Below are positions 4,304 through 20,971 of a stretch of DNA of 64,000 bases, one piece after another. A program made the translations under genes and the position numbers. Position 1 is the first letter of the stretch. Every line of letters starts with the position of its first letter. The stretch comes from Pseudomonadota bacterium (GTDB taxonomy: Bacteria > Pseudomonadota > Gammaproteobacteria > Xanthomonadales > SZUA-38). The notes below the pieces were generated by a model. The model was not told where the DNA came from. It ran no database searches and was given only the letters and a program-made list of their open reading frames with translations. The stretch covers positions 124,001 through 188,000 of the forward strand of contig JBCCCR010000005.1 of assembly GCA_039033415.1 (NCBI GenBank), written 5' to 3'.

Positions 4304-4342
4304 AGTCTGTCGTACCTCTATTGTTGCCGCTCGACGACCACC

Positions 4343-4771: not shown

Positions 4772-5682
4772 CCGGCAGCCCCGATGTGCTGGTGTTCGAG
4801 CACCTTAAGCCCCAGCGACGCCCGCGCTTCCGCCGGTGCCTGCACCCGCGCGCCCATAGATTCCACGATGTCGACGGCGCGCTCAACCAACTGTGCATTG
4901 GAAGCGAGCACGCCCTTCTTAAGATAAAGATTATCTTCAAGACCCACGCGCACGTTGCCGCCCAATGCCACGGCCTGTGCAACCATCGGAAATTCCATGC
5001 GGCCGATCGCAAACCCCGCCCAGTTACAGTCGTCGGGCAGCTCGTTCACCATGCACTGAAAGACGTTGGTTGTTGCGGGTGCGCCCCAGGGAATGCCGAG
5101 GCAAATCTGAAAGAGCGGCGGCGCGTCGATCAGCCCCTGCTCAATCATGTGCTTGGCAAACCACAGCTGACCCGTGTCGAACACCTCCAGCTCCGGCTTA
5201 ACGCCGAGCTCCTGGCAGCGCTTGGCGCCCATCTCAACCATGTCCTGGGTGCCGACATAAACATAGTTGCCGCCGAGATAGTTAAACGATCCGCAGTCGA
5301 GCGTGCAGATTTCAGGCAGCGTCGCCTCAACATGAGCCATCCGCTCCATCTGCCCCACGCAGTCGGTCTCGTTGGCAAAGTTGAGCGGGGCGTCGTCCGG
5401 GCCCAGCCAAAGGTCACCCCCCATGCCGGTGGTGAGGTTGATGATTACGTCGGTTGCGCTGTCGCGGATGCGATCGACAACTTCAACATAGAGCTCCACT
5501 CGGCGGCTCGGAGCACCGGTGTCGGGCTCGCGAACATGTATGTGCGCGACTGCTGCGCCTGCCTTTGCTGCTTCGATAGCCGCATCGGCGATTTGCTTGG
5601 GTGATTTCGGCAGATCGGGATGCTTGTGTGCGGTGTCGCCGGAGCCGGTGACGGCGCAGGTAATGATGACGTCTTGGTTCAT
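4768..5682 (-). CDS. Beta-keto acid cleavage enzyme (BKACE, DUF849 family)
   Basis: The 304-residue length and motifs are typical of the BKACE/DUF849 family. These zinc-dependent Claisen-type enzymes exchange the acyl group of a beta-keto acid with acetyl-CoA, giving acetoacetate and a new acyl-Co[13 protein letters not shown] supplies the zinc-binding His pair (H47, H49), [10 protein letters not shown] the substrate loop, and [12 protein letters not shown] near residues 257-268 the conserved Glu. Family substrates include 3-keto-5-aminohexanoate and dehydrocarnitine. The coupled thioesterase downstream favours a dehydrocarnitine-like substrate by analogy with the Pseudomonas cdh genes, although no carnitine dehydrogenase of the usual 3-hydroxyacyl type is visible in this window. 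It sits 95 bp downstream of a LysR regulator on the same strand. Confidence 0.88.
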
Positions 5683-5777
5683 ATTTATTGTTTTCTTCGG
5701 ATCGTGCGTAACCGACGCGTTAGCTCAGGAATCTTTTTTCGCCGCGAATCATTGCAGGCCAAACGTTTAGACTCCGT

Positions 5778-6701
5778 CTATAAAGTTGTCCGGCTCATCA
5801 GCATTGACTCATCCAGTGCAACCTGGGTCAACAGCCACTCTCGTACGCTTGCCACATCAGACCGCTCGTATTTCTCGTCGCGACAAACCAGGTACCAGTC
5901 GTTGGGAGTGAAAATCCGCCGATCCGGATAGGGTTCGAGCAGCTGGTTGACGGCCATATCGCTATTGACAAACGGCTCCATCCCCAGCGCGACACCGATG
6001 CCCTGTTTGGCCGCATTCATGGCAAGATCGTAACTGTCAAACTGTTGACCTGCATCGGGATCAACGCCCTCTACGTCGTTTTGCTGCAGCCAGAACCACC
6101 AGTCCCGGCGCGACGGATAAACCTGTAGGATGGGCGCCTTGGCCAGCATTCGCGGGCTCTCCGCCAGCGAGTACGAATCCATCATCTCAGCACTGCAAAC
6201 CGGAAAAATGCGGGTGGAGAAGAGATAGTCATACCGCAGCGACGCGCTGGACCGCCGGCCGATCATCACGCACAGATCAACGTCCTCATGTTCGAAATCC
6301 ACGTCGGACTGAGACGTGTGGAGACGGATTCGCAGGTCGGGATGCTGACGACCCAGGTCGGGTAAGCGCGGTATCAGCCAACGAATGGCAAAGGTGGAAT
6401 AAACCTGCAAAGTGATCGTCGAATGCGACTTGGCGCTGAGGATGAAATCTGTTCCCTCAGCAATCCGGTCAAAGGCATCGCGTAAGACGGGGTACAGCGC
6501 ATGCCCCAGCCGCGTCAGCTCGACGGCGCGAGGCTTGCGCAGGAACAGCTCAACACCGAGCTCATGTTCCAGCTGTTTAATCTGGTGGCTCACGGCCGAG
6601 TGCGACACACACAGCTCATCCGCCGCAGCTTTGAAGCTCCCGGCTCTTGCAGCAGCCTCAAACGTACGCAGAGCGTTTAGGGACGGAATTCGTGAGCGCA
6701 T
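5778..6701 (-). CDS. LysR-family transcriptional regulator (GcvA-like)
   Basis: The 307-residue product starts with a winged helix-turn-helix typical of GcvA-like LysR proteins: SLNALRTFEAAARAGSFKAA, then ELCVSHSAVSHQIKQLEHEL. The rest is the two-lobed effector-binding domain. The ATG has GAGG 8 bases upstream. It precedes the BKACE gene on the same strand and faces the TPR-sulfotransferase gene across a 68-bp divergent gap. Both the BKACE block and the divergent gene are therefore candidates for its control. Known carnitine operons of Pseudomonas use a different regulator type, so this pairing does not by itself identify the substrate. Confidence 0.88.
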   Translation of the reverse strand: MRSRIPSLNALRTFEAAARAGSFKAAADELCVSHSAVSHQIKQLEHELGVELFLRKPRAVELTRLGHALYPVLRDAFDRIAEGTDFILSAKSHSTITLQVYSTFAIRWLIPRLPDLGRQHPDLRIRLHTSQSDVDFEHEDVDLCVMIGRRSSASLRYDYLFSTRIFPVCSAEMMDSYSLAESPRMLAKAPILQVYPSRRDWWFWLQQNDVEGVDPDAGQQFDSYDLAMNAAKQGIGVALGMEPFVNSDMAVNQLLEPYPDRRIFTPNDWYLVCRDEKYERSDVASVREWLLTQVALDESMLMSRTTL

Positions 6702-6769
6702 TGTGGAGGACCTCGCTCTTCGCCGACCGAGTTTGCTGCGTGGATTCTCCTCGTGTCAATATTCACACA

Positions 6770-8773
6770 ATGGACAGCGCACCGATGTCAGGACAGGAGC
6801 CCGTCAGCGATGTGGTGATCGCATTGCGACAGGCCTTCGAGCTCCTGCGAGATGATCCAGCCCAGGCCCAGCGTCGGGCTCTCGAAATTCTCAAGACCCA
6901 TCCCGCTGAAAAGAATGCCCGCCTGCTCGCCGCCATGGCGGCCCGACGCCAGGGCAGCGTTGATGAGGCAGTCCAGTCCCTGGATGGCCTGGTCGAGGAT
7001 GAACCGGGTTTTGCACCAGCTTTCGAAGAGCTTGGGCTGGCTCTGATGGCCGGTGGCCGCTGGGAAGATGCCGAGACCGCGCTGGAATCAGCGTTGGCCC
7101 TCGACGATCGCCTTGCCGGGGCTTGGAAAGCCCTCGGTGATGTTCGTATCGAACAGGGGGACGAAAGTGCAGGGCATGAAGCCTACCTGAAGCAGCTGAG
7201 TCTTACGGCACACAATCCAACGGTGGCGCGGGCGGGGGAGGCGCTACGTCGCGGCAAGCTTGCCGAAGCAGAGCAGCTGTGTCGCGAGCACCTGAAACAG
7301 CATCCGACAGACGTTTCAGCCATAAGGCTGCTCGCCGACGTCGGAATTCGAGTTGGTCGCCTGGACGACGCGGAGAAGCTGCTGCTTCGCTGCCTTGAGC
7401 TTGCGCCCGACTTTCACATGGCGCGACACAACTATGCCAACCTGCTTTTCAAGAAGTTTCGCTATGAAGACGCGCTCCATGAGCTCGACACGCTGATTGC
7501 AGCCGAGCCGCATCGGCCGACCCATCTCCTGCTGAAGGCCTCAATTCTCGCGCGCGTTCAGGAACCCACGCAGGCGATCGATATCTACCGCCAGGTTCTC
7601 AAGCTGTACCCCAGCCAACCGCGCACCCAGCTGAGCCTCGGCCACGTGCTTAAGACCGTCGGCCAGCAGGCCGATGCGGTCCGCGCCTATCGCGAGGCCA
7701 CAACGCTGGCGCCGTCGCTTGGGGAGGCCTACTGGAGCCTGGCGAATTTGAAGACCTTTGAGTTCGAGGATGCCGAAATCGAGGGCATGCAAAAGGTTCT
7801 GGCGGAAGGACCCCGTTCGGTCGAGGATCTGTTTCACCTGTCGTTTGCGCTGGGCAAGGCGCTGGAAGACAGAGGTCGCTACGACGAGTCTTTTGCTCAC
7901 TATCTTCGAGGCAACGCTGCTCGGCGCCGCACCGTTCGCTGGAACGCGGACGAGCACAGCAGCAACCTGCAGCAGAGCGCAGACTTTTTCTCGGCCAGTT
8001 TTTTGAGCAGCCAGGGCCCAGTCGGCGATCCTTCCGATTCACCGATCTTTATTGTTGGCCTGCCTCGCGCTGGATCCACGCTGCTGGAGCAGATTCTGGC
8101 CAGCCACAGTCTGGTCGAAGGCACGATGGAACTGCCGGACATCATTTCCATGGCGCGCCGGCTCAGCGGGAAGAAGTCGCGCGAAGATACGTCTGAATAC
8201 CCACACATTCTGGCCAGCCTAAGCGCCGGCGAGCTGGCCGCCCTGGGACGGGAGTATCTGGAACGAACCCAGGTTCACCGATCCGGCACGCCCTACTTCA
8301 TTGACAAAATGCCGAACAACTTTGCGCACGTCGGACTGATCCACGCCATTTTGCCGAACGCCAAGATCATCGATGCGCGCCGGCACCCCATGGCGTGCTG
8401 CTTCAGCGCGTTCAAGCAGCTCTTTGCCAGCGGCCAGAACTTCAGCTACAGCCTTCAGGAGGTTGGCCGGTACTACGCAGACTACGTCAAATTCATGGAG
8501 CACTGGGATCGCGTGCTGCCGGGGCACGTGCTGCGTGTCAACTATGAAAACGTCGTCGCCGACACCGAAGCAGAGACCCGGCGGCTCCTGGCCCATTGCG
8601 GGCTGGCGTTTGAGCCGCAGTGCCTGGAGTTCTACCGCACTGCGAGAGACGTACGCACCGCAAGCTCCGAACAGGTGCGACAGCCCATCTATCGCAAATC
8701 GGTGGAACAGTGGCGCCACTACGAAAACCACCTGGGGTCTCTTAAAGAGGCGCTGGGAGGCCTGTATAGTTGA
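6770..8773 (+). CDS. TPR-repeat sulfotransferase
   Basis: The 667-residue protein has two parts. Residues ~10-400 are tetratricopeptide repeats, with recurring units such as AFEELGLALMAGGRWEDAET and MARHNYANLLFKKFRYEDAL. The C-terminal ~270 residues form a sulfotransferase domain. The PAPS 5'-phosphosulfate loop is FIVGLPRAGSTLLEQ (~residues 426-440) and the 3'-phosphate site lies around DARRHPMACCFSAFK (~535-549). Such proteins transfer sulfate from PAPS to an unknown acceptor, and the TPR arm probably binds it. I chose ATG 6770 because it begins directly after the divergent LysR promoter gap. The frame is open 41 codons upstream, but that part overlaps the LysR gene. A TonB receptor gene follows 113 bp later. 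Acceptor unknown. Confidence 0.88.
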   Translation: MDSAPMSGQEPVSDVVIALRQAFELLRDDPAQAQRRALEILKTHPAEKNARLLAAMAARRQGSVDEAVQSLDGLVEDEPGFAPAFEELGLALMAGGRWEDAETALESALALDDRLAGAWKALGDVRIEQGDESAGHEAYLKQLSLTAHNPTVARAGEALRRGKLAEAEQLCREHLKQHPTDVSAIRLLADVGIRVGRLDDAEKLLLRCLELAPDFHMARHNYANLLFKKFRYEDALHELDTLIAAEPHRPTHLLLKASILARVQEPTQAIDIYRQVLKLYPSQPRTQLSLGHVLKTVGQQADAVRAYREATTLAPSLGEAYWSLANLKTFEFEDAEIEGMQKVLAEGPRSVEDLFHLSFALGKALEDRGRYDESFAHYLRGNAARRRTVRWNADEHSSNLQQSADFFSASFLSSQGPVGDPSDSPIFIVGLPRAGSTLLEQILASHSLVEGTMELPDIISMARRLSGKKSREDTSEYPHILASLSAGELAALGREYLERTQVHRSGTPYFIDKMPNNFAHVGLIHAILPNAKIIDARRHPMACCFSAFKQLFASGQNFSYSLQEVGRYYADYVKFMEHWDRVLPGHVLRVNYENVVADTEAETRRLLAHCGLAFEPQCLEFYRTARDVRTASSEQVRQPIYRKSVEQWRHYENHLGSLKEALGGLYS

Positions 8774-8886
8774 GAAAAACTAACGCTTGATTGACTTTAA
8801 TTCCTTTGTAGTAGGCTTTTCAGTTGATTTAAATTGACCATGCAGGCGTCTGAAGAGCGCCCCTTTTTAGCGATCGAGGTATTGCC

Positions 8887-11289
8887 ATGACCGTCCGTCG
8901 TAAGAGCCGTGATTCTGTTTTTCCGCAGCAACGCCCTATTGCCAGAGGCATCCGGTCCGCGTTAGCACCTTCATCTTGGGTTGCCTCCGTCGCCGCAGGC
9001 GCACTGCTTTTCAGCGCCGGCAACTCGCAGGCTCAGGTACTCGAAGAAGTTGTGGTCACGGCACAGAAGCGGGAGGAGAACCTGCAGGACGTTCCGGTGA
9101 GCGTCAACGTGCTGGGCGAGCAGCTGATCGAGCAGCTCAACATCACGGACTTCTCCGACTACTTTCAGTTCCTGCCCAGCGTGTCAGCGCAGCAGTTCGG
9201 GCCAGGCCAGGCGCAGATCTACATGCGTGGCGTTTCTGACGGCGGCGACGGGAATTTCTCGGGGACCACCCCGAGCGTCGCGCTGTATCTCGATGACCAG
9301 CCGGTTACCGCGATCGGGCGCAACCTCGACGTACACATTTACGACGTAGCGCGCATCGAAACGCTGCCGGGCCCCCAGGGCACGCTGTACGGCGCCAACT
9401 CCCAGGCCGGCGCCCTGCGAATCATCACCAATCGCCCCGACCCCAGTGAGTACGAAGCCGGTTTTGACCTCGGGGTATCGACCGTTAAAGACGGAGACCT
9501 GGGGTACTCAGCGGAAGGCTTTGCCAACATTCCCTTGTCCGACAACGTCGCGCTGCGTGTTGTTAGCTGGTATATCGAAGACGGCGGCTGGATCGACGTG
9601 GTGCCCTCGTCCCTGACCTTCTCTCAAAGCGGTCTTACGGTCTCCAACTTCGGCAATGCCAATCCCAACCTGAACACGGTGGAGGATGACTACAACTCGC
9701 TGACCAACGCCGGCGCGCGAGCGGCTCTCGGCATCGACCTGAACGAATCCTGGACCACCACAGTCACCGCGATGGCACAGTCGCAGGAGTCCGACGGCGT
9801 CTTCGCCGATCAGCCGGATGCGGGCGGGCCGGGCCAGGGGCGGGTCGAGCGATTTTTCCAGGATAACTATGAGGACCAGTGGGTACAGCTTGGGCTTTCC
9901 GTGCGCGGTGATCTCGGGTTTGCCGACCTGACGTTCTCAGGCTCTTACCTCGATCGAGAGGTCGACTACGACATCGACTACACGCAATACTCCGAGTACT
10001 CGACCTACATCGAGTACTACTACACCTGCGTTTACTACGACTTCGGCAACTGCACCGATCCACGCATCCAGTATGAGAACGACAGCACCTTTGAGCGCTC
10101 GTCTTTCGAACTTCGGCTGCAGTCCAAGGAAGACCAGCGCATCCGGTGGATCGCCGGCCTGTTTCACACAGACGATCAGCACGAGTACTTCAATCAGTGG
10201 GTGATTCCAACGATCCCTGAAGGCAACGATATTCCGCTGGATCGCAATGTTCAGGGGCGCGAAGACCTCTACTTTGCCACGAACCAGGTCCGTGACAACA
10301 AGGAGTTTGCGGCGTACGGCGAGCTGACGTTTGACATCACCGATCAGCTGTCGGCCACGCTCGGCGGGCGCTGGTTTGAGACCGACGACGTGCTCTCTGG
10401 GTTTGTGGGCTCGAGATTCAGCTGCTTCGACCCTGCCGACGGTAACCGCATCGGCAACGGCACCGGAACCAGCACCGATTGCGGCGGTGGACTGGAAGCC
10501 CAGCTGGATGACTTCACGTGGAAGGGCAACCTTACGTATCGATTCAACGACGACGTGATGGTCTATTTCACCTACTCCGAAGGATTCCGGCCCGGCGGCA
10601 TCAATCGAGAACCCAGCCCGGTGATTCCTCAGGTGTATGAGCCTGACTTCATCAAAAACTATGAGATCGGCTGGAAAACCACCTTTGCAGACGGCCGGGC
10701 CCGGTTTAACGGCGCGGCCTACATCATGGACTGGGACGCCCTCCAGCTAACGCGCTTCGACGTGGAGAGCTTTGGGTCGTTCCTCGGCCTGACCGCCAAC
10801 ACGGGCGGCGCCGACATCGCCGGCATTGAAGGTGATATTCAGTGGGCGGTCTCTGATAGCTGGACGTTGTCGGGCGGCTTCTCCTACAACCAAGCCGAGC
10901 TTGCCGAGGACTTTTTTGTCGGGTCAACGGACACCACGCCCGTGGCGCCGGACGGCACGGATCTGCCGTTTACTCCCGACCTCAAATACACCGCGATCTC
11001 GAGAAACGAGTTTACGTTCGGTGGGAACGACGCATATTTTCAGGCCGCGTGGAGCTGGACCGATGATTCGTTCAACGGCCTGTTCATCGCTGACCGCGTT
11101 GAGCAGGACAGCTACGGCATACTCAATCTTTCCGGCGGGGTGACGGTCGGCGATATGCAGTTCGATCTCTACATCAACAACGCGACGGACGAGAATGCTG
11201 AGCTCACTCGATACAACCGCGGCGGCGATCAACGGGTGGTGGCCAACCGGCCGCTGTCGGTTGGCCTGCGAATGAGCATGAGGTTCTGA
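8887..11289 (+). CDS. TonB-dependent outer-membrane receptor
   Basis: The 800-residue protein has a long signal region ending near ~residue 48. A TonB-box-like EEVVVTAQKREENLQD, a plug (VARIETLPGPQGTLYGANSQ), and a barrel ending in NRPLSVGLRMSMRF with terminal Phe follow. Within the barrel are the usual FTYSEGFRPGG and NYEIGWKTTF motifs. The ATG has GAGG 8 bases upstream. A short tyrosine-rich stretch near residues 358-385 (VDYDIDYTQYSEY onward) probably forms an extracellular loop. The SDR gene begins 9 bp after the stop, so this receptor leads a seven-gene run through the aconitase-X genes. That makes it the likely outer-membrane entry point for the substrate those enzymes handle. Confidence 0.93.
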   Translation: MTVRRKSRDSVFPQQRPIARGIRSALAPSSWVASVAAGALLFSAGNSQAQVLEEVVVTAQKREENLQDVPVSVNVLGEQLIEQLNITDFSDYFQFLPSVSAQQFGPGQAQIYMRGVSDGGDGNFSGTTPSVALYLDDQPVTAIGRNLDVHIYDVARIETLPGPQGTLYGANSQAGALRIITNRPDPSEYEAGFDLGVSTVKDGDLGYSAEGFANIPLSDNVALRVVSWYIEDGGWIDVVPSSLTFSQSGLTVSNFGNANPNLNTVEDDYNSLTNAGARAALGIDLNESWTTTVTAMAQSQESDGVFADQPDAGGPGQGRVERFFQDNYEDQWVQLGLSVRGDLGFADLTFSGSYLDREVDYDIDYTQYSEYSTYIEYYYTCVYYDFGNCTDPRIQYENDSTFERSSFELRLQSKEDQRIRWIAGLFHTDDQHEYFNQWVIPTIPEGNDIPLDRNVQGREDLYFATNQVRDNKEFAAYGELTFDITDQLSATLGGRWFETDDVLSGFVGSRFSCFDPADGNRIGNGTGTSTDCGGGLEAQLDDFTWKGNLTYRFNDDVMVYFTYSEGFRPGGINREPSPVIPQVYEPDFIKNYEIGWKTTFADGRARFNGAAYIMDWDALQLTRFDVESFGSFLGLTANTGGADIAGIEGDIQWAVSDSWTLSGGFSYNQAELAEDFFVGSTDTTPVAPDGTDLPFTPDLKYTAISRNEFTFGGNDAYFQAAWSWTDDSFNGLFIADRVEQDSYGILNLSGGVTVGDMQFDLYINNATDENAELTRYNRGGDQRVVANRPLSVGLRMSMRF

Positions 11290-11298
11290 CCTCGGCTG

Positions 11299-12087
11299 AT
11301 GGGGTATTCGGGCAATTCACCGGTGGTCCTCGTCACTGGGGGCGCAACCGGCATCGGGCGCGAAATGGCCAGGCGGTTCGCTGCTGACGGTCATCGAGTC
11401 CACGTTTGTGACGTCGATCTGGACGCCATTGCGGCGTTGCAGGCCGAGACCGATCAAATCACGGCATCAGCTGGCGATGTGGCAGACGTTGCGGACGTGG
11501 ACCGCGTTTTTGACGACATTGTCGAACGGTACGGCCAGCTCGATATTTTGGTAAACAACGCGGGGATTGCCGGCCCCACGGCACCGGCAGAAGACATCGA
11601 GCCAGCGGCGTGGGACCGGACGATCGCCGTCAGCTTAAGCGGACAGTTCTACTGCCTGCGCCGTGCTATTCCGATGATTCGAAAAAGCGCCAGTGGGTCC
11701 ATCATCTTCATCGCCTCAAATGCCGCTTATTTCGGGTTTCCTCTCCGCCTTGCCTATGCGGCGTCCAAGTGGGGCCTCGTGGGGATGACCAAAACGCTAG
11801 CGATGGAGCTGGGCGCCGAAGGCATACGCGTGAACGCCATTTGTCCGGGCAGCGTCTCCGGGCCCCGCATCGATGCCGTGATTGAGCGCGATGCAGCCGA
11901 GCGCGGCCAGACACCTGAAGAAATTCGCCGTATCTACGAGCGCCAGTCGTCCCTGCGTTGCTTCGTAGAGGCAGAAGACGTCGCCGCGCTAGCGAGCTTT
12001 CTCTGCTCCCGCGAAGGCGCCAAGATCTCTGGGCAGGCCATCGGGGTCGATGGACATACCGAGTCCTTGTCCAACTGGTTCGATTAG
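11299..12087 (+). CDS. Short-chain dehydrogenase/reductase (SDR)
   Basis: The 262-residue classical SDR has the NAD(P)-binding glycine motif TGGATGIG (~residues 13-20), NNAG (~90), catalytic Ser in FIASNAAY, and YAASK with the active Tyr and Lys near residues 155-159. The C-terminal GQAIGVDGH segment is usual for this class. It oxidises an alcohol to a ketone or the reverse. It starts 9 bp after the TonB receptor and is followed after 16 bp by the MDR gene. In this neighbourhood it could oxidise a beta-hydroxy acid to the keto acid that the nearby BKACE cleaves, which would replace a carnitine dehydrogenase. That role is conjecture. Confidence 0.9.
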   Translation: MGYSGNSPVVLVTGGATGIGREMARRFAADGHRVHVCDVDLDAIAALQAETDQITASAGDVADVADVDRVFDDIVERYGQLDILVNNAGIAGPTAPAEDIEPAAWDRTIAVSLSGQFYCLRRAIPMIRKSASGSIIFIASNAAYFGFPLRLAYAASKWGLVGMTKTLAMELGAEGIRVNAICPGSVSGPRIDAVIERDAAERGQTPEEIRRIYERQSSLRCFVEAEDVAALASFLCSREGAKISGQAIGVDGHTESLSNWFD

Positions 12088-12103
12088 TTTTTGGAAGGAG
12101 CCC

Positions 12104-13090
12104 ATGAAAGCAGCGTGGTTTGACCAGTTCGGCCCAGCGGCGAACGTCCTGACGATCGGTGACCAGGCCGACCCGACCCCCAATCCCGGCGAGGTGCTGG
12201 TGAAGATCAGCACCAGCGGGGTGAACCCATCGGACGTCAAGAAAAGGGCCGGCTCGTTCCCCAATCTTCTCGACGGCGGTTTCGTGATTCCTCACAGCGA
12301 CGGTGCGGGAATCATCACCGCTGTCGGCGATGGTGTTGACGGTAGCCGGATCGGCGAGCGGGTTTGGCTGTATCAGGCCCAGTACGGGCGACGCTTTGGC
12401 ACCGCTGCGGAATACCTGACAATCGAGGACTCGCGAGCCGTCAGGCTGCCCGATAGTGCCTCCTTTGAGGTCGGCGCGTGTCTGGGGATCCCCTGCATGA
12501 CGGCGCATCGCTGCGTTTTCGCCGATGGCGGCGTTGAGGGCCAGACTCTGTTGATCACCGGTGGTGCAGGCCGAGTCGGGCATTACGCCATCCAGTGGGC
12601 AAAGCAGGCGAACGCGCGCGTGATTGCCACCGCCAGCTCCGATGTCGATGCCGAAAGCTGTCGGCAGGCGGGCGCTCATGCGATCGTCAATCACCGTGAG
12701 TCCGGGTGGGCCGAGACGGTACTCAGCGTGAACGACGGAAAGCCGGTCGATCGCGTGATCGACGTAGAGTTTGGCGTTAACCTTCCTGAGGTGTTGAACT
12801 GCATCCGAACCAGTGGCGTGATCGCGACCTATTCATCGGTGCAGGACCCCGAGCCCAAGCTGCCTTTTTTCCAGATGCTTTACATGGATCTCGATATCGA
12901 AATCGTGATCGTTTACGCGATGCCTGAACCGGCCAAACAGCACGCTATCACCGACATCACTGCGGCGCTCGAGGCGAATTCGCTCACTCATCGTGTGTCA
13001 CATGTTGTGCCGCTCGAGGAAATCGCCAGGAGCCATGAGCTGATCGAAACCGGCGGCTTTCGCGGGTGTGTTGTTGTATCTCTCGATTAG
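12104..13090 (+). CDS. Zinc-independent MDR oxidoreductase (NADPH:quinone reductase-like)
   Basis: The 328-residue product begins MKAAWFDQFGPAANVL and shows the MDR fold. A GroES-like N-terminal half contains GVNPSDVKKRAG. The Rossmann half contains TLLITGGAGRVGHYAIQWAK, matching quinone oxidoreductases. The zinc-binding cysteines of classical alcohol dehydrogenases are absent. Such enzymes reduce quinones or activated C=C double bonds with NADPH. The start at ATG 12104 is supported by an excellent GGAAGGAG 5 bases upstream. The longer open frame reaching back to 12050 overlaps the SDR gene and is rejected. Because an aconitase-X dehydratase is encoded downstream, reduction of a double bond made by dehydration is one reasonable task. 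Confidence 0.88.
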   Translation: MKAAWFDQFGPAANVLTIGDQADPTPNPGEVLVKISTSGVNPSDVKKRAGSFPNLLDGGFVIPHSDGAGIITAVGDGVDGSRIGERVWLYQAQYGRRFGTAAEYLTIEDSRAVRLPDSASFEVGACLGIPCMTAHRCVFADGGVEGQTLLITGGAGRVGHYAIQWAKQANARVIATASSDVDAESCRQAGAHAIVNHRESGWAETVLSVNDGKPVDRVIDVEFGVNLPEVLNCIRTSGVIATYSSVQDPEPKLPFFQMLYMDLDIEIVIVYAMPEPAKQHAITDITAALEANSLTHRVSHVVPLEEIARSHELIETGGFRGCVVVSLD

Positions 13091-13117
13091 CCGGGCGCTT
13101 ATCGCGAGGAGCCTGCG

Positions 13118-14698
13118 GTGAGCCGGCCCGCCAGCCGGCTGAGCGCCATTGCATTCACCGCTATGATGTTCCTGACGCTTTGTGCATGTGAGAGTCAGGC
13201 TCCGGATCAGGGGAGAGCGAGCTTCGTTGAGGTGTTTGCGGGAGGGGAGCAGCTCCGTGGCGAAGCGCTGGTGGGTGGTGTCCATGCCTTTCGCGGCATC
13301 CCCTTTGCTGCCGCGCCAGTTGGCGCGCTGCGCTGGCAGCCCCCTCAACCCCACGTTTCCCGTAGCGGCGTCCAGGACGCGACCCGTTTCGGTTCAGCAT
13401 GCCCGCAGGGACAGGGCAATCCGCGATGGTATCGGCAGGTTGCCGCTGGCTTTGGCGCAACCGATGCGGTGATTCCGGAGCTCACAGACATTTCAGAGGA
13501 CTGTCTTTTCCTGAACGTCTGGACTAAAGACCCGTCTCGCCAAGCGTCCCGGCCCGTCATGCTCTGGATTCACGGCGGGTCCAACGTCAACGGGTTTTCC
13601 CATGAGCCGAATTACCTGGGCCATCAGCTTGCCAACCAGGACATCGTTGTTGTGAGCATCAACTACCGGCTCGGCGCACTCGGATTCATGGCCCATCCCG
13701 CGCTGTCAGAGGAAGATGAGGGCGGCGTTTCGGGTTATTACGGGCTCGCAGACCAGGTCGCCGCGCTGCGATGGGTGCAGCAAAATATTGCCGCTTTCGG
13801 CGGTGACCCGGACAACGTGACCGTGTTCGGAGAATCCGCCGGAGGCGGCAACATCTCCGCGCTCATGCGAATGCCGGCCGCGGTTGGGCTGTTTGACAGG
13901 GCCATCATTCAAAGCGGTGCGCTATTCCCCTATGACGCAATCAGTCTCGAAGCGGCGAGCGCTGCGGGTGAACAGCTGACCGCCAGCCTAGACGCCAACA
14001 CCGTCCATGACATGCGTAAGCTGGACTGGCAGTCGCTGGTTGAGCAAAGTGATCGGATGTCGAACGACTACTACTTTGGGCCCATCGCGGACGGGCGTCA
14101 CGTGCTCAAGTCAGACCGGGGCGCCGCCGTGCCCCTGTTGATCGGCACCAATGCGGATGAAATGCTCATGTATCTGCCGGATGACTCGCTGGCGGCCATG
14201 AACGAACAGCTCAGCCAGACGGCAAATGACCGACGCCGCGACGTCGAAGCCCACCTGGATCGATACGCGAGTACCGCCATGAAGGCCAATCGGCTGTCTA
14301 CCGCTGCCGAATTTTTTTGCCCGGCGCTGAGCCTGGCAGAAGAGGTTGGGCGGGCGGACAAGCCAACATTTTACTATTTGTTCACCAGAACGAGACCCGG
14401 GGGAGCCAAGCTTAGGGCCTACCACGGCGCGGAGATTCCTTACGTTTTCGACACGGCGGACGACTGGCTTCCGGCTGACGACAGTGACCGCCTGCTGACG
14501 AACACCATGCAAGCATACTGGACAAACTTCGCCCGCAGCGGCGACCCCAACAGCGAGGCGCTGCCGACGTGGCCCCGCTTTGACAACAACCGAACGATTC
14601 TTGAGCTGGGCGATAAGATTGGCCCGTTGGGTGACGGATCCGACCAGCTGTGCAAACTCCTCAGGACAGCAACACCGGCGGCAGCTGATGGACAGTAG
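13118..14698 (+). CDS. Type-B carboxylesterase, probable lipoprotein
   Basis: The 526-residue protein starts at GTG 13118 behind a GAGGAG. Its N-terminus has a hydrophobic stretch ending in the lipobox-like LCAC (Cys24), so it is probably lipid-anchored. Alpha/beta-hydrolase type-B signatures follow: SEDCLFLNVW at ~126-135, the oxyanion HGG at 152-154, and nucleophile Ser240 in VFGESAGGG. A conserved IGTNADE and the catalytic His region AYHGAEIPYVF come later. It hydrolyses ester bonds of small molecules, most likely in the periplasm given the leader. It lies between the MDR gene (27 bp) and the BCCT gene, which begins inside its last codons. It may release a charged acid or alcohol that the BCCT transporter then imports (inference). 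Confidence 0.9.
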   Translation: MSRPASRLSAIAFTAMMFLTLCACESQAPDQGRASFVEVFAGGEQLRGEALVGGVHAFRGIPFAAAPVGALRWQPPQPHVSRSGVQDATRFGSACPQGQGNPRWYRQVAAGFGATDAVIPELTDISEDCLFLNVWTKDPSRQASRPVMLWIHGGSNVNGFSHEPNYLGHQLANQDIVVVSINYRLGALGFMAHPALSEEDEGGVSGYYGLADQVAALRWVQQNIAAFGGDPDNVTVFGESAGGGNISALMRMPAAVGLFDRAIIQSGALFPYDAISLEAASAAGEQLTASLDANTVHDMRKLDWQSLVEQSDRMSNDYYFGPIADGRHVLKSDRGAAVPLLIGTNADEMLMYLPDDSLAAMNEQLSQTANDRRRDVEAHLDRYASTAMKANRLSTAAEFFCPALSLAEEVGRADKPTFYYLFTRTRPGGAKLRAYHGAEIPYVFDTADDWLPADDSDRLLTNTMQAYWTNFARSGDPNSEALPTWPRFDNNRTILELGDKIGPLGDGSDQLCKLLRTATPAAADGQ

Positions 14699-16220
14699 AA
14701 AGCTTGACGTCCCCATCTTTGTCACTGCGTTTCTGGTGGTTCTTTTTGTATGCGTTCCCATCATGGTTTGGCCGCAGCAGGCCGGTGGCCAGATACAGCA
14801 AACCTACGACTGGATCGCGGAGAATTTTGGGCTGCTTTACCAGTGGGTCGTGATCGGAATTGTCGGGTTTCTCGGCTGGATCGCGCTGAGCCGGCACGGT
14901 GAGATCCGCCTGGGCGATCCTGACGAGCGGCCCGAGTTTTCTCACTTTGGCTGGGTTTCCATGTTGTTTTGCGCCGGGGTTGGTGCGGGCCTGTTGTATT
15001 GGGCCACGATCGAGTGGGGCTATTACATGGTCACGCCGCCGTTTGGCACAGAGCCCAACTCGGAAGAGGCGATCGCCTGGGCAACCTCCTACGGGCTGTT
15101 TCACTGGGGCTATATCGCCTGGGCCATATACGCGCTGCCGACCGTCGCCATTGCCTTTCCGTACTATGTCAAAAAAGTGCCCTACCTGAGGCTGAGCACC
15201 AGCTGTCATTCGTTCTGGGGGGCCAAAGGCAAAGACGCGATCGGCGCGCGAATCGTCGATGGCGTTTTTATGCTTGCCCTGATCGGCGGCGCCGGAACGT
15301 CCATGGGCCTTGCTGTTCCCATGGTCTCAGCCAACCTCGCCGACGCGGTGGGTCTTGAACGCTCATTTATGCTGGACGTCGGCGTGGTTGCGGTCTGCGT
15401 AGCGCTGTTTGCCTTTTCTGTTTACGCAGGTCTCGAGAAGGGCATTAAGCGGCTTGCTGACCTCAACGTCTCCGCGGCGCTGATCTTCCTGTTGTTTGTC
15501 CTGCTGGCGGGGCCCACGCTGTTTATCCTCCGGGTGGGTACCGAGAGCATCGGGTTCATGCTCGACAACATGTTCCGCATGCTGACGTGGACCGACCCCA
15601 TCGCGCGGACACGCTTCGTGGAAGACTGGACCATCTTTTACTGGGCCTGGTGGATTGCCTTTGGGCCATTTGTCGGCGTATTTATCACCCGCATTTCGCG
15701 TGGGCGCACCCTCAGACAGCTCATCGGCTACATGGCCGTGTTCGGGAGTCTTGGGGCCTGGGCGTTCTACATCGTCCTGGGCAACTACGCGCTGTTCCTC
15801 GACCTCAATAACGTCGTTCCGGTCCGTGAAGTGCTCGCCAACGGTGACCCGGCCGCCGCGATTGCCAGCGTTATCGGCGAACTGCCGCTGGGACCGATCG
15901 CTCAGGTGGTCTTTGCTTCGATCAGCATCATTTTTATTGCCACCACCTACGATTCAGCTTCCTACGCGCTGGCCTCGGCCGCATCGGCACAGATGGGCGT
16001 GGGTGATGATCCGGCCCGGTGGAATCGCCTGTTCTGGGCTTTGGTGCTCGGGCTACTCCCAGTTGCGCTCATGGCGGTAGACGGCGGCGTCAAGGTCATC
16101 ATGTCGGCGGTGCTGGTCGCGTCCCTACCCCTGATTATTGTTGCCATCATGATGTGCGTGAATCTCGGGCGATCGGTCGGGAGCCCAGCGACCGTTTCCA
16201 GTGAGCAGAAACGCGCTTAG
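14688..16220 (+). CDS. BCCT-family betaine/carnitine/choline transporter
   Basis: The 510-residue product has about 12 membrane helices. The BCCT signature lies around FYWAWWIAFGPFVGVFITRI, the Trp-rich helix that binds trimethylammonium groups, and GGAGTSMGLAVPM and RGRTLRQLIG nearby match the family. These inner-membrane carriers import quaternary ammonium compounds such as glycine betaine, carnitine or proline betaine by sodium or proton symport or by exchange. I chose ATG 14688, which overlaps the esterase end by 11 bases. Thirty-six more codons are open upstream but lie within the esterase gene. The aconitase-X large subunit starts 20 bases before its stop. The gene gives the strongest clue that this operon handles a betaine-like substrate. 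Confidence 0.93.
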   Translation: MDSRKLDVPIFVTAFLVVLFVCVPIMVWPQQAGGQIQQTYDWIAENFGLLYQWVVIGIVGFLGWIALSRHGEIRLGDPDERPEFSHFGWVSMLFCAGVGAGLLYWATIEWGYYMVTPPFGTEPNSEEAIAWATSYGLFHWGYIAWAIYALPTVAIAFPYYVKKVPYLRLSTSCHSFWGAKGKDAIGARIVDGVFMLALIGGAGTSMGLAVPMVSANLADAVGLERSFMLDVGVVAVCVALFAFSVYAGLEKGIKRLADLNVSAALIFLLFVLLAGPTLFILRVGTESIGFMLDNMFRMLTWTDPIARTRFVEDWTIFYWAWWIAFGPFVGVFITRISRGRTLRQLIGYMAVFGSLGAWAFYIVLGNYALFLDLNNVVPVREVLANGDPAAAIASVIGELPLGPIAQVVFASISIIFIATTYDSASYALASAASAQMGVGDDPARWNRLFWALVLGLLPVALMAVDGGVKVIMSAVLVASLPLIIVAIMMCVNLGRSVGSPATVSSEQKRA

Positions 16221-17472
16221 GCTGACCGCAGCCGAGCAGGCCGACCTCAACGGCGAACAAGGTCCGGCCGCGCAATGGGCCATGGATCTAGTCGTTTCTG
16301 TTGGCCAATGCCTGCAGGCCTCCAAACTGGTTCCTATCAAGCAGGCCCATCTTGTTGGCGCTTACCACTCGGGCGCGGCCAACCTCGCGTTTCTGGAGAA
16401 GCTGGCTGACTGGGGCGCGCAGGTTCGCGTTCCGACCACGCTGAACGCCAGCTCAGCGGACTTGACCACCGACGGCGAGCCTTGTTTCCAGCTTTCCGAG
16501 CGTCGGAAGGCGGCAGGCGTTGTCGGTCTGCTTCAGCAAATGGGGTGTACCGCATCCCTCACGTGCGCCCCTTATTTCCTTTCCGACAGTCCCCGCTTTG
16601 GAGACTACTTGGCCTGGGCGGAGTCGAACGCGGTGCTGTACGCCAATTCGGTGATTGGTGCGCGCACCCTGAAGTGCCCACAGTATTTCGACATGGCTTG
16701 CGCGCTGACCGGCCGAGCCCCGTTGGTGCGGGCGATGACCGACCAAGGACGCAAACCGCATGTGGTCATCAACGTTGAGCGCCTGTCTGACCGCTGGTTT
16801 GAAGACCGAATTGGCGCACAGCTGGTTGGCTATGCCGCAGGAACAATCGCGGGGGGTCAGGTTGCCCTGATTCGAGGAGTACCCGTGCAGCTGGGCAAAC
16901 CCGTCCTGCAGGGACTTTGCGCGGCGGCCGGCGTATCGGGCTCGATGGAGATGCTCCACGTGGAAGGCTCCACGCCAGAGTCGGAAACACTAGGGGCGGA
17001 CAGCGGAGACAGCGAGATATTTTTTCTCGCGGAAGACGATATTCAGGCGCTGGCGAACGCGTGGCGTCCAGCGAACGTTCATGATCCGGTGGCCGTCTGC
17101 ATCGGCACACCCCACGCTGGGCCGGAGGAGATCAAGGAACTCTTGGGACGCCTAAACGCATGCGCGGGCCCGACTAGGCTACCGGTCTACCTTTCCATGG
17201 GAAGGTCGGTATATGACATGCCGCAGCTGGGCCGGGTGCTTGAGTCGCTGCAAACCAAGGGTGTGACGATCATCAGAGACACCTGCACGTACTACGGCTC
17301 ACTGATGAGTGCACGGCAGGGCTTGGTCCTCACAAACTCCGTGAAGTGGGCGGCCTACGCAACGTCCGGGCTTGGCTGCACGCCGTTTCTCGCAACGCTG
17401 GCCGAGTGTGCAGATTCAGCTCTGGCGGGCGCCATGGTTACCGACAGGAGCTACTGGCGTGTTGGGCCATAG
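16201..17472 (+). CDS. Aconitase-X large subunit (AcnX catalytic domain)
   Basis: The 423-residue product matches the DUF521/AcnX catalytic domain. Its start LRLTAAEQADLNGEQGPA resembles the usual AcnX beginning, followed by SGAANLAFLEKLADWGA. IGTPHAGPEE (~301-310) and DTCTYYGS (~360-367) are further family landmarks. Cysteines at 122, 300, 362 and 393 are candidates for the iron-sulfur site. AcnX enzymes are hydro-lyases. Characterised members dehydrate cis-3-hydroxy-L-proline in bacteria and mevalonate 5-phosphate in archaea. The start is GTG 16201, inside the end of the BCCT gene. The small subunit is encoded immediately after, with overlap, as usual for the split form. The substrate here is unknown. 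A hydroxyproline-type or beta-hydroxy betaine is possible. Confidence 0.85.
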   Translation: MSRNALRLTAAEQADLNGEQGPAAQWAMDLVVSVGQCLQASKLVPIKQAHLVGAYHSGAANLAFLEKLADWGAQVRVPTTLNASSADLTTDGEPCFQLSERRKAAGVVGLLQQMGCTASLTCAPYFLSDSPRFGDYLAWAESNAVLYANSVIGARTLKCPQYFDMACALTGRAPLVRAMTDQGRKPHVVINVERLSDRWFEDRIGAQLVGYAAGTIAGGQVALIRGVPVQLGKPVLQGLCAAAGVSGSMEMLHVEGSTPESETLGADSGDSEIFFLAEDDIQALANAWRPANVHDPVAVCIGTPHAGPEEIKELLGRLNACAGPTRLPVYLSMGRSVYDMPQLGRVLESLQTKGVTIIRDTCTYYGSLMSARQGLVLTNSVKWAAYATSGLGCTPFLATLAECADSALAGAMVTDRSYWRVGP

Positions 17473-17905
17473 TATCAAGGTAGATTTCTTGATCCCCGGT
17501 ACGGCAACCGGCCCGCTGCTTCATATCGAAGACGCCGTCAGCATTTGGGGCGGCATCGATATCGCTAGCGGTCGATTGATCGAAGCGGGACACCCAGATT
17601 ATGGCGCCACTCTTGCTGGCAAGCTGCTGGTAGGCGGTAAAACCAAGGGAAGTACCGCCGGCCCTGGTGCGCTGTTGGAGCTGATGCACAAAGGCTGCGG
17701 ACCCGCGGGGTTCTTGACCTTCGGTCCCGACCCGGTGCTGCTAGCCGCAGCGAAGGCCATGAACCTCTTGGACCGGAAGCCAGCGCCTATCGCTATTGTC
17801 ACCCAGGAGTATTGGCGGGAGGTCTTGCGCTGGTGTCGAGAATGTCCGGAATGGCTTCTGACGCTGGATGCCGACGCGTGCACAGCCAGCGTTGCGAAAC
17901 CATGA
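17459..17905 (+). CDS. Aconitase-X small (swivel) subunit, DUF126
   Basis: The 148-residue product is the AcnX swivel domain. IPGTATGPLLHIEDAVSIWG and GKTKGSTAGPGALLELM hold the family's conserved residues, including the Ser of KGSTAGP. It pairs with the large subunit to form the dehydratase. I place the start at GTG 17459, overlapping the large subunit by 14 bases, because a strong AGGAG lies 8 bases upstream. The alternative upstream start at 17372 adds residues that do not look like the family. The protein ends at 17905, where a minus-strand serine hydrolase gene converges. The residues after ~115 (EYWREVLRWC onward) are less typical. Confidence 0.83.
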   Translation: MLGHSIKVDFLIPGTATGPLLHIEDAVSIWGGIDIASGRLIEAGHPDYGATLAGKLLVGGKTKGSTAGPGALLELMHKGCGPAGFLTFGPDPVLLAAAKAMNLLDRKPAPIAIVTQEYWREVLRWCRECPEWLLTLDADACTASVAKP

Positions 17906-17977: not shown

Positions 17978-19129
17978 TTATGGGACCGCCGTTGCCGCGG
18001 AAGCAGACGATCCACTCATCGATGCTTTAGTTATTGCTGGCAGGATGTACTGTTCGGTGAGCTGAAAAGGCCGCTCCATCTCGGGAAATTTACCGTAGTT
18101 TTCTCCGGTCCACGCAACCACCAGTTCAAGCTCCGGCCAGACCATAATGAACTGACCGCCGTTTCCCCAGGCTTCGAACGAGCGCAGCGGCTTCCCATCG
18201 ATTTCCCGATCGATCATGCGCCACAGATAGCCGAAATCTTCGCCATACAGGTCACTGGTGGCATGTTTTCTTGTCGATTCTGCAACCCATTCTTCTGACA
18301 GCAGCCTCTGCCCATTCCATCGCCCTTTGTTGAGGTACAGAAGGCCAAACTTGGCCATGTCTCGCGGGGTGAGATGCAGACCACCACCTGTCATGGCCAG
18401 ACCCTGATTGCCTCGGGAGTTGGTAATCGGCCATCGATACTTCTTGATGCCCATCGGCTCGAAGAGGTACTTGTCGGCAAAGGCGGGAATTCGGAGCTTG
18501 GATGCACGTGTCACAACATTCCCGATGGTGACAATGCCGCTGGTTGCGTAGGAGAACTTTTCACCCGGGTCGGCAGCCAGAGGCTGGTCCCAATAGAACT
18601 TGATCCAGTCTTCGGTGGGGTACATGTTGTCTTCGTTGTTTCGCACCCCGGACGTCATCGACAGCACGTGACCGATCGTGATGTCGTTTTTGCGCTCGTC
18701 CCAGTTCTCAATCGTGCCTTCGTATTCCGGAAAAAACGGCAGGACTGTTTGATCCACGCTCTCCAGGAAACCCTGATCGATCGCGACGCCGACAAGCGCG
18801 GAGGTGATGGCCTTCGCCGCTGATCTTGTCGAGTGGATATCTTTTCGATCCCACTTGCCGAAATAATCTTCGAAGACCAAAGCGCCCTTGTAGACAATCA
18901 CAACGCCATCGATCCCGATGTCTGATTCATCTTCGATCAGGTTGACCATCGCCTCGAACGGTTCACGATCGATCCCCTCCGCCTCCAACGACGAGATTCT
19001 CCATTGGTGCTCACCCGGACCCAGTTCGGCGGCGGGCACTTGAGCGCCGGCATCATGATTGTCGACGTCGCAACCGCAGATGCCGAACGTCAATACGAAA
19101 ACTAGCCAGTTGCGCGGTGCAAGATTCAA
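17978..19129 (-). CDS. Serine hydrolase of the beta-lactamase class C/esterase family, lipoprotein
   Basis: The 383-residue protein begins with a lipoprotein-like leader (FGICGC, Cys20). It has the penicillin-binding-protein fold markers: S103-A-A-K106 in STRSAAKAI, the YxN-equivalent Y194 in KFSYATSG, and a C-terminal GNGGQ in place of the usual K/H-T-G. Such proteins are esterases, D-aminopeptidases or amidases more often than true beta-lactamases. The leader points to attachment at the membrane facing the periplasm. Its stop converges on the aconitase-X operon with 72 bases between. The upstream 261 bases separate it from the divergent GMC oxidoreductase. The natural substrate cannot be inferred. 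Confidence 0.85.
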   Translation of the reverse strand: MNLAPRNWLVFVLTFGICGCDVDNHDAGAQVPAAELGPGEHQWRISSLEAEGIDREPFEAMVNLIEDESDIGIDGVVIVYKGALVFEDYFGKWDRKDIHSTRSAAKAITSALVGVAIDQGFLESVDQTVLPFFPEYEGTIENWDERKNDITIGHVLSMTSGVRNNEDNMYPTEDWIKFYWDQPLAADPGEKFSYATSGIVTIGNVVTRASKLRIPAFADKYLFEPMGIKKYRWPITNSRGNQGLAMTGGGLHLTPRDMAKFGLLYLNKGRWNGQRLLSEEWVAESTRKHATSDLYGEDFGYLWRMIDREIDGKPLRSFEAWGNGGQFIMVWPELELVVAWTGENYGKFPEMERPFQLTEQYILPAITKASMSGSSASAATAVP

Positions 19130-19390
19130 TGGATTATTTTCCTTTGCTGTGGCTTCGGGAGGTCGCGAGGGGTTGCCGGAGCATGGTCTGCTTCAGTTTT
19201 TCGAAGGCACATCTTGCATCGGCAGGGGCGCTTCCGCATCCCCGAAAAGTATGGCCTATACCCCTCATCTCAGCCGAAGAATCCTGCGATCGACGGACAC
19301 CAACGCTGGACCGCTAGGCTTCGCTAGCAGGGCGATCGGCTTTCCTGTAGCTTGGGCTGATGCATTGGCCTCGCGCGACTAGTTAGAGCC

Positions 19391-20971
19391 TTGAAGCTGA
19401 CACGACGTGAACTGCTCGGCGTTACGGCGACGGCCGCGGCAACCTCATGCTCATCACATCTGGCCAAACGGTCTTCGGCGAATTCGGACTACGACGTTTT
19501 GGTTGTCGGGGGCGGCTCCGCTGGCGCGGTTGTAGCGGCTAGACTCAGCGAAAACCCGAACCGTAGAGTCATGCTTCTTGAGGCTGGCGGTGAGGCGAAA
19601 GATCCCCTCATCGACCAGCCGCTCCAGTGGTTTCGACTACTGGGCTCCGAGCTGGTCTTTCCAGACGAAACCTCGCAACAACGCTATGTCGGAGCGAAAA
19701 CCCTCTTCGCCGGCCACGGCAGAGTGCTTGGCGGATCCAGCGCGATTAACGCCATGATTCATCATCGGCCCATGCCGCTGGACATCAACGACTGGGGGAT
19801 TGACGGCTGGCGCTGGGAAGATCTGGAGCCGATGCTCCGGCTATCAGAAACTTTCCTCGGAGACCGTCAGGAAGGACGAGGCACAGCGGGGCCTATCGGC
19901 GTCAGCCTCATCCCGGATCCACCACCGCTGGCAGATGCGGCTCTGGCGGCCGCAGACCGTCTGGGCCTGGGCGCGACTACAGATATCAACACGGGTACTC
20001 AACTTGGCGCTGCCATTAATCAGTTGGCCTTCGCTCAGGGCAGACGCCAGCATACCGGACTCGCATATCTGACAACCGCCCGTGGCCGAGACAACCTCAC
20101 AATCCGCACTAATGCCCAGGTCGATTCACTATCCATTGAGGGTGATCGAGTAACCGGACTCAGCTATCGACACCGGGGTGAAAAACGGCTCGCTGGAGGT
20201 GCACATGTTGTGCTTTGTTCTGGCGCACTCAGGACACCACAGCTGCTGATGCTGTCGGGTTTGGGTCCTGCCGACATGCTCCGTAAGCACGGAATCCATG
20301 TGGTGGTGGACGCGCCTGAAGTCGGCGCCAATCTCCATGATCACCTGCTGATCTCGGGCAACAATTTCGCCACCCCGGAACCGATCGAGGCTTCCGGCAC
20401 GCACGGATCGGTAGCCGTCGTTTACGCCTCATCAACACCCAACGGGCCCAGAGATCTGCTGCTCAATGTTTCCACTAACGCTAACGTGATTCCGCCACTC
20501 ACAGGTGCGGCCGCTGGCTTCAAGAGCTCCTTCAGCTTCATGCGGCCTCGCAGCCGCGGTCAGCTCTCGCTCACCAGCAATGATCCAACGATTCAGCCTG
20601 CCATAGACGTTAACTATCTGGCCGATGAACGCGATCGCGAGGGGATGCTTAATGCGCTTTCTCTCAGCAGGGAGCTGCTCTCCGCTCGCGAGTTCAGTCA
20701 ATTTGGGGGCGTCGAACAAAACGGCGATTACTTTCGGGACGCTGCCTCATCACTGAAATTTCTACACGACGGAGCCACGCCATTTGGGCACTACTGTGGC
20801 ACATGCCGGATGGGCACCGACAAAAACGCACCGGTTGCCAGCTCGCTGGCTTTTCGCGGTATCTCCGGCCTGAGTGTCGTTGATGCATCCGTGATACCAG
20901 CGATACCCTCATGTCCAACCAATCCCCTGGTCGTGGCGATTGCGGAACTATTTGCTCAGCGTTTCGGCTAG
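19391..20971 (+). CDS. GMC-family FAD oxidoreductase, probably Tat-exported
   Basis: The 526-residue product appears to start at TTG 19391, since the frame is closed immediately upstream. The N-terminus KLTRRELLGV...AATSC combines a twin-arginine-like motif with a possible lipobox Cys near residue 20, suggesting folded export with FAD. The FAD site is YDVLVVGGGSAGAVVAARLS, followed by LLEAGG and GHGRVLGGSSAINAM, the GMC signature 1 region. Near the C-terminus, HYCGTCRMG and IPSCPTNPLV carry the catalytic His and Asn. GMC enzymes oxidise alcohols such as choline, glucose or long-chain alcohols. It is a single gene here, and choline dehydrogenase activity should not be assumed. Confidence 0.88.
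   Translation: MKLTRRELLGVTATAAATSCSSHLAKRSSANSDYDVLVVGGGSAGAVVAARLSENPNRRVMLLEAGGEAKDPLIDQPLQWFRLLGSELVFPDETSQQRYVGAKTLFAGHGRVLGGSSAINAMIHHRPMPLDINDWGIDGWRWEDLEPMLRLSETFLGDRQEGRGTAGPIGVSLIPDPPPLADAALAAADRLGLGATTDINTGTQLGAAINQLAFAQGRRQHTGLAYLTTARGRDNLTIRTNAQVDSLSIEGDRVTGLSYRHRGEKRLAGGAHVVLCSGALRTPQLLMLSGLGPADMLRKHGIHVVVDAPEVGANLHDHLLISGNNFATPEPIEASGTHGSVAVVYASSTPNGPRDLLLNVSTNANVIPPLTGAAAGFKSSFSFMRPRSRGQLSLTSNDPTIQPAIDVNYLADERDREGMLNALSLSRELLSAREFSQFGGVEQNGDYFRDAASSLKFLHDGATPFGHYCGTCRMGTDKNAPVASSLAFRGISGLSVVDASVIPAIPSCPTNPLVVAIAELFAQRFG

Follow-up and report, generated by a model that had tools for sequence, protein, structure and literature searches.

A conserved gammaproteobacterial gene cluster, probably for degradation of carnitine-type hydroxy-betaines, with an aconitase-X that lacks the amine-binding aspartate

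We describe a gene cluster in a 64,000-nucleotide stretch of DNA, hereafter the window (GenBank assembly GCA_039033415.1, contig JBCCCR010000005.1, positions 124,001 to 188,000), from a gammaproteobacterium of the order Xanthomonadales. Judged from its sequence, the cluster is one conserved unit with a betaine-type carrier, a beta-keto acid cleavage enzyme (BKACE) of the kind associated with carnitine dehydrogenases, and an aconitase-X (AcnX) without the usual amine-binding aspartate. We consider it reasonably probable that positions 3239-17905 form a single unit for the catabolism of quaternary ammonium beta-hydroxy acids of the carnitine type and, probably, of the O-acyl esters of these acids, and our best reading of the route is uptake and aerobic degradation of such hydroxy-betaines to glycine betaine. 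An earlier note on this DNA had tentatively joined a seven-gene operon and a divergent BKACE block into one route for an unusual ester of a quaternary ammonium hydroxy acid. The single route is borne out by gene order in two other genomes and by BKACE identities of 57-64%; carnitine, an ordinary compound, fits best as the substrate.

The seven genes lie on the plus strand. They encode a TonB-dependent outer-membrane receptor (8887-11289; PF07715/PF00593), an SDR dehydrogenase that is the candidate carnitine-type hydroxy-acid dehydrogenase (11299-12087; PF13561), an MDR reductase of the quinone reductase/enoate reductase type (12104-13090; PF08240/PF00107), a type-B carboxylesterase with a lipoprotein-like signal (13118-14698; PF00135), a DddT/CaiT-like BCCT carrier (14688-16220; PF02028), and the large subunit (16201-17472; PF04412, 335.7 bits) and small, swivel subunit (about 17459-17905; PF01989) of AcnX. 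In gene order they are separated by gaps of 9, 16 and 27 bases and then overlap by 11, 20 and 14 bases; the earlier note had given the same gene families, a spacing of at most 27 bases and four overlapping genes, and both the Pfam matches and the open reading frame (ORF) coordinates agree with it. ATG codons were chosen as starts at 12104 for MDR and 14688 for BCCT, where the open frames begin upstream at 12050 and 14580, and the MDR Pfam query ran from 12107. The unit is larger than these seven genes and includes a TPR-sulfotransferase gene, a LysR gene and the BKACE-thioesterase block with TauD. The TPR-sulfotransferase gene (6770-8773, plus strand, ATG at 6770; PF13469 and TPR models, with the longer frame 6647-8773 as Pfam query) is separated by 113 bases from the TonB gene downstream of it and is probably the first gene of the unit. 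Divergent from it is the gene of a LysR-family regulator (5778-6701, minus strand; PF00126/PF03466), followed on the same strand by genes for BKACE of the dehydrocarnitine-cleavage type (4768-5682; PF05853), a hotdog thioesterase similar to betainyl-CoA (coenzyme A) thioesterase (4343-4771; PF13279, 4HBT_2) and a TauD/TfdA-family dioxygenase of 354 residues (3239-4303; PF02668). The GC content of 3239-17905 (0.599) is like that of its surroundings (0.595 and 0.602), so there is no compositional sign of recent transfer. Promoter and terminator scans of the sequence did no better than shuffles (4 vs 4.6 and 12 vs 14.8).

Close AcnX relatives are very rare. Of 369 genomes of the class, 4 have one at E<=1e-60, and of 398 genomes of the order, 2 have one at E<=1e-66, the source genome included in both counts; among genome contigs, seven stretches matched the pattern for close relatives and none was confirmed. 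The SDR was therefore taken as the probe for conserved loci. The source genome holds no paralogue of it at E<=1e-40, and it occurs at E<=1e-65 in 56 of 396 genomes of a different order, that of genome G225 (G-numbers denote the genomes compared and L-numbers the loci). Two of these loci, L175 (from G920) and L176 (from G932), both of one genus, hold the whole set except TauD. Their identities to the window are 74-75% for LysR, 64% for TPR-sulfotransferase, 75-76% for TonB, 71-73% for SDR, 71-74% for MDR, 59-60% for the esterase, 75% for BCCT, 56% and 46-51% for the large and small subunits of AcnX, 67% for BKACE and 55-56% for the thioesterase. The seven genes from TonB to the small AcnX subunit stand in identical order in all three, the TPR-sulfotransferase gene precedes the TonB gene, and LysR is divergent from the cluster. 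In L175 and L176, BKACE and the thioesterase come immediately after AcnX on its own strand, whereas in the window they lie on the other side of LysR. That both blocks form one cluster there is strong evidence that operon and BKACE block serve one purpose; a conserved-neighborhood comparison, which the earlier note had suggested as a check, thus finds the whole gene set recurring as one cluster.

The surroundings of all 56 SDR loci were compared, with G427 standing for G1225 (same contig coordinates of the match). Neighbors were counted at identities of at least 40% for MDR, 45% for BCCT, 35% for the esterase, 50% for BKACE, 55% for LysR and 38% for TonB. MDR lies directly downstream of SDR in 49 loci, and within 9 kb on either strand we found BCCT in 34, the esterase in 24, BKACE in 8 and LysR in 5; these counts are lower bounds, since many contigs end within the stretch, and the loci are not independent, since the genomes are related. 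A LysR copy of 64% identity is also divergent from SDR in L182.

Parts of the set recur in other arrangements. On L019, a contig of 3.4 kb from an Ekhidna metagenome bin, an MDR gene (45% over the 168 residues held) stands directly before AcnX and its small subunit. A Sphingopyxis bin (L059, 6907-11685) has, in order, the thioesterase (35%), SDR (43%), BKACE (46%), an OCD/mu-crystallin-family gene, AcnX and the small subunit. In G225, a TauD-thioesterase-BKACE block (72, 65 and 78%) is found on one contig, SDR-MDR-BCCT (56, 64 and 51%) on a second and AcnX on a third. Among the genomes of L019, L059 and L053, only that of L059 has BKACE (1/3), in four places; the L059-type BKACE was found in 2 of 149 genomes, L059 itself and L129, and L129 gave no match to the window SDR or AcnX. 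BCCT was found at E<=1e-100 only in the source genome (1 of 61 relatives). Among the plasmid matches listed, the best reached about 38% for AcnX and about 41% for BCCT, TauD relatives stayed at or below 24.5% among the 20 matches listed out of 28, and MDR relatives (48% and 46%) had no betaine gene annotated in the two regions inspected.

BKACE provides a link to carnitine, seen in three annotated plasmid regions. The window enzyme is 63.7% identical to a BKACE on a plasmid of Caballeronia, behind which lie genes annotated as L-carnitine dehydrogenase and thioesterase, and 59.5% and 57% identical to BKACEs of Novosphingobium and Rhizobium leguminosarum, respectively, each beside an annotated carnitine 3-dehydrogenase. 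The top match, from Burkholderia (64.7%), could not be judged, as its record is unannotated there. Orthology to CdhC of the cdhCAB-type operon is supported, as judged from the identity of 57-64% to these neighbors of annotated carnitine dehydrogenases. The thioesterase belongs to the 4HBT_2 family and adjoins BKACE in L175, L176 and L121, so that family and gene position fit a betainyl-CoA thioesterase; it weakly matches the C-terminal part of the carnitine 3-dehydrogenase model NF005716 (31 bits). Its nearest solved structure, ybaW, is of little help, and the same holds for the structures nearest to TauD and MDR. TauD may be an oxygenase for glycine betaine or a carnitine-related compound. 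Two TauD genes of G225 have 70-72% identity to the window's, one (L121:9101-10156) behind thioesterase-BKACE and the other (L122:9479-10579) beside sarcosine-oxidase-alpha and dimethylglycine-dehydrogenase-like genes, and these are possibly 2-oxoglutarate-dependent glycine betaine demethylases. A sarcosine oxidase alpha gene (at least 50% identity) occurs at 3 of the 56 SDR loci.

No usual-type carnitine dehydrogenase passes the cut-off in the source genome (98.67% complete); the best match there scores 172.7 against 592 bits and shares 29-33% with three annotated enzymes that are 48-59% identical to one another. SDR is for this reason the candidate dehydrogenase in the window. G225 and G427 likewise have no carnitine dehydrogenase over the cut-off.

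The AcnX pocket was compared with that of cis-3-hydroxy-L-proline dehydratase, the nearest solved structure (218 bits). Residues were mapped by alignment to the solved enzyme, whose chain is numbered with an offset of 10, as the S70A mutant chain confirms; the mapping is gap-free around the pocket, and the small subunit was aligned to 7cnp. The sole NCBIfam match is the family of that dehydratase, at 303 bits against a cut-off of 700 set for a fused protein of 555 residues. According to PMC8184944, Ser293, Lys530 and Glu292 of the dehydratase hold the carboxylate and 3-hydroxyl, Thr72 and Asp203 bind the nitrogen, and Trp35 and Ile206 touch ring C4 and C5. The window AcnX keeps Ser70, Cys273, Glu292, Ser293, Asn294, Asn233, Cys508, Lys530, Tyr534 and Trp35 (reference numbering), its catalytic core in window numbering being Ser65 of the small subunit, Cys122, Glu141, Ser142, Cys362, Lys382 and Tyr386. 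Asp203 is replaced by Val (Val52), Ile206 by Tyr (Tyr55), Cys71 by Thr and Thr72 by Ala, so that the small subunit reads Ser-Thr-Ala at the general-base position. Among 87 aligned AcnX rows, the aspartate is kept in 82, the exceptions being the window, L019, L012, L053 and, at a greater distance, L015; only the first four of these have Tyr in place of Ile206. In 86 rows, the Thr72 column is Ser in 60, Thr in 17, Gly in 7 and Ala in 2 (window and L019). The Val, Tyr and Ser-Thr-Ala of the window recur in L175 and L176, which were later finds; Val52/Tyr55, Ser-Thr-Ala and the small-subunit Trp are identical in the window, L175, L176 and L019. In quick trees all rows without the aspartate formed one clade (support 99 and 95; 98 without the window).

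The window AcnX thus has the general-base Ser, Glu-Ser-Asn, Lys, Tyr and two Cys ligands in common with characterized AcnX enzymes, but lacks the amine-binding Asp and has Tyr at the Ile/Leu position. The two-subunit architecture is shared with types IIa and IIb. The third cluster ligand of mevalonate 5-phosphate dehydratase (type IIb) is Cys283 (PMC8184944), and the corresponding place is Thr303 in the window and Cys in L015; this third Cys, present also in type I, is thus absent from the window AcnX, as in type IIa. Types IIc to IIf are presented in PMC8184944 as having no landmark residue of either activity and awaiting characterization. In L012 (8738-11252) and L053 (4629-7066), a homocysteine S-methyltransferase gene comes after an AcnX whose pocket is Ala/Tyr, with SSF-symporter, MTHFR- and DAO-family genes further on in L053 and a Rieske oxygenase gene in L012. 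L015 (8329-10043), in the same-genus genome G001, has a very dissimilar AcnX (24%) whose GCPH motif contains the Cys; a TonB receptor gene lies nearby.

The nearest solved chains of the BCCT carrier are DddT, which carries dimethylsulfoniopropionate (DMSP), and then CaiT. Relative to the DddT binding residues named in PMC13270143, the carrier keeps the aromatic box Trp140, Trp321 and Trp322 and the carboxylate-binding Ser205 (window numbering from 14688), together with the equivalents Gly101, Trp105, Tyr112, Trp314, Phe317 and Tyr318. It differs from DddT by Phe for Tyr324 and Gly for Ala99. By sequence these residues fit a zwitterion that bears both a carboxylate and an onium group, without telling which. 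The esterase has a GESAG motif and a lipobox-like Cys, recognized by eye, both kept in four aligned homologues.

Since the carrier stands nearest to a DMSP transporter, a route of the same kind for another onium hydroxy acid has to be considered, such as gonyol, a hydroxylated proline betaine or a betaine-lipid head group, with BKACE releasing another betaine-CoA. Gonyol is a beta-hydroxy acid. It occurs in phytoplankton (PMC7221440), and the homocysteine S-methyltransferase genes beside the AcnX relatives in L012 and L053 point the same way. We regard this alternative as unlikely, given that BKACE resembles enzymes beside carnitine dehydrogenases and that a canonical carnitine gene set is found at 3 of the 56 SDR loci. 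These three (L180, L181 and L194) have genes like the R. leguminosarum carnitine dehydrogenase, CaiD, ACAD and CoA ligase, and 3HCDH domains were confirmed in two of the dehydrogenases.

With a carnitine-type compound as substrate, the TonB receptor would bring an acyl ester across the outer membrane and the lipoprotein esterase would split it in the periplasm. BCCT, a transporter by class, would import the freed betaine. SDR, instead of a 3HCDH-type enzyme, would oxidize the 3-hydroxyl to give 3-dehydrocarnitine, from which BKACE, judging by its similarity and context, would form betainyl-CoA and acetoacetate with acetyl-CoA. The thioesterase would free glycine betaine, and TauD may perhaps start its demethylation. 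AcnX would dehydrate the free carnitine-type beta-hydroxy acid, or hydrate crotonobetaine, without CoA, and MDR, whose nearest solved structure is a quinone oxidoreductase, would reduce the resulting double bond. LysR would control the unit.

A number of observations weigh against this reading. Uptake of an ester is proposed from gene content, TauD was not found in L175 or L176, and the thioesterase is weakly alike, with 27% identity, to the fused carnitine-enzyme domain. Only 2 of the 56 loci have AcnX near SDR, whatever the identity; the module thus works without AcnX and does not depend on its reaction. In L059, AcnX keeps the aspartate and adjoins an OCD/mu-crystallin-family gene, which suggests an amino-acid substrate there. 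The Thr72 place is mostly Ser or Gly where the aspartate is kept, and Ala there weighs little. The clade of rows without the aspartate is lost when L019 is omitted; we therefore claim only the grouping of the window, L175 and L176 (support 100), and the aspartate may have been lost separately. As for SDR, the one NCBIfam family that it passes among 25 listed is a generic FabG subfamily (238 bits, with a cut-off of 222), and the solved structure most like it is named 3-ketoacyl-ACP reductase. CdhA-like genes lie within 9 kb of it in 5 of the 56 loci, so SDR need not replace CdhA.

The points on SDR, together with 3-hydroxybutyrate dehydrogenase models that come near it below cut-off (201 vs 307 bits), would also suit an ordinary 3-hydroxybutyrate/acetoacetate dehydrogenase or keto-acyl reductase, acting for example on acetoacetate released by BKACE, with carnitine oxidized by an unrecognized enzyme elsewhere. 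There is little likelihood of this, in our view. SDR accompanies MDR and BCCT (49 and 34 of 56 loci) far more often than BKACE (8), a pattern suggesting that the transported compound is its substrate, and in L059 it is placed between the thioesterase and BKACE. It is very improbable that the genes are several unrelated transcription units that happen to be neighbors and share no pathway; the majority of the 56 SDR loci have no AcnX, TonB or BKACE (at the identities given above) within 9 kb, and G225 has the three parts on three contigs, but the complete cluster is conserved in two genomes of another order. That AcnX is a cis-3-hydroxy-L-proline dehydratase, as its nearest structure and sole family match would have it, is scarcely credible, because the loss of Asp203 to Val argues against cis-3-hydroxyproline as substrate, Ile206 has become Tyr, and type I binding sites are completely conserved in type IIa dehydratases (PMC8184944). 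The earlier note had counted AcnX residues agreeing with those dehydratases among the observations that would speak against its route; at the key aspartate they do not agree.

Carnitine and both known AcnX substrates are free beta-hydroxy acids. The place of ring C4 and C5 would hold the carnitine end, and the Trp and the new Tyr there could, on the model of other betaine sites, form an aromatic cage. We tentatively propose, as a possibility that we would not yet call probable, that AcnX is a third functional type, a CoA-independent carnitine dehydratase/crotonobetaine hydratase holding the trimethylammonium between the small-subunit Trp and Tyr55. The cluster would then be a new aerobic carnitine/acylcarnitine route, with SDR in place of the classical dehydrogenase and AcnX-MDR in place of the CoA-bound CaiB/C/D/A steps. 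No CaiD-, CoA-ligase- or ACAD-like gene was found in the fetched L175/L176 stretch or the Pfam-scanned part of the window (1.6-27.5 kb), the search being confined to these stretches rather than whole genomes, and no AcnX was seen in L180, L181 and L194, which have such genes. This is compatible with AcnX and the CaiD/CoA-ligase/ACAD genes replacing each other, on a comparison of three loci with two and the window.

Carnitine breakdown through BKACE is already known. The caiX-cdhCAB-hocS operon of Pseudomonas aeruginosa and relatives converts carnitine to glycine betaine via 3-dehydrocarnitine, with CdhC as BKACE, and also encodes a short-chain acylcarnitine hydrolase (PMC5806209, PMC12482172). 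The window shares the BKACE, but has SDR and MDR instead of a 3HCDH-type carnitine dehydrogenase (none over cut-off), a BCCT carrier and TonB receptor for the ABC system and LysR for CdhR, with AcnX added. Compared with the cai route (CoA ligase, CaiD, ACAD), the same interconversion of carnitine, crotonobetaine and gamma-butyrobetaine would occur, but AcnX and MDR would act on the free acids. A literature search, with most subscription journals outside its reach, found no AcnX tied to carnitine-type compounds; a paper naming both aconitase X and betaine has a main-text passage on enzymes for hydroxyproline betaine and proline betaine (PMC5144071). Two AcnX activities have been described (PMC8184944, PMC5144071). 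The present pocket differs from both characterized kinds, so the reaction may be new to the family, and for an AcnX that lacks the landmark of cis-3-hydroxy-L-proline dehydratases the cluster supplies both a gene context and a prediction at the level of residues. Medium- and long-chain acylcarnitine hydrolases of P. aeruginosa are stated to be unidentified in PMC5806209, and the cluster offers candidates for such hydrolysis. If our reading is correct, environmental bacteria have a further route from carnitine-type compounds to glycine betaine.

Some further neighbors were observed. The TPR-sulfotransferase gene repeatedly adjoins a TonB receptor gene (window, L175, L176, L177, L132 and L124). 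In L132 of G225 the order is TonB, TPR-sulfotransferase, BCCT, and genes for a gamma-butyrobetaine hydroxylase-like protein and an MTTB-family methyltransferase lie near this set (L132:1412-16500). A beta-lactamase-family protein and a GMC oxidoreductase adjoin the cluster in the window (17978-20971), and neither had a BLAST match at E<=1e-8 among the ORFs picked in L175 and L176. Farther downstream (33549-44297), the window encodes a protein of 3582 residues with bacterial Ig and cadherin-like repeats.

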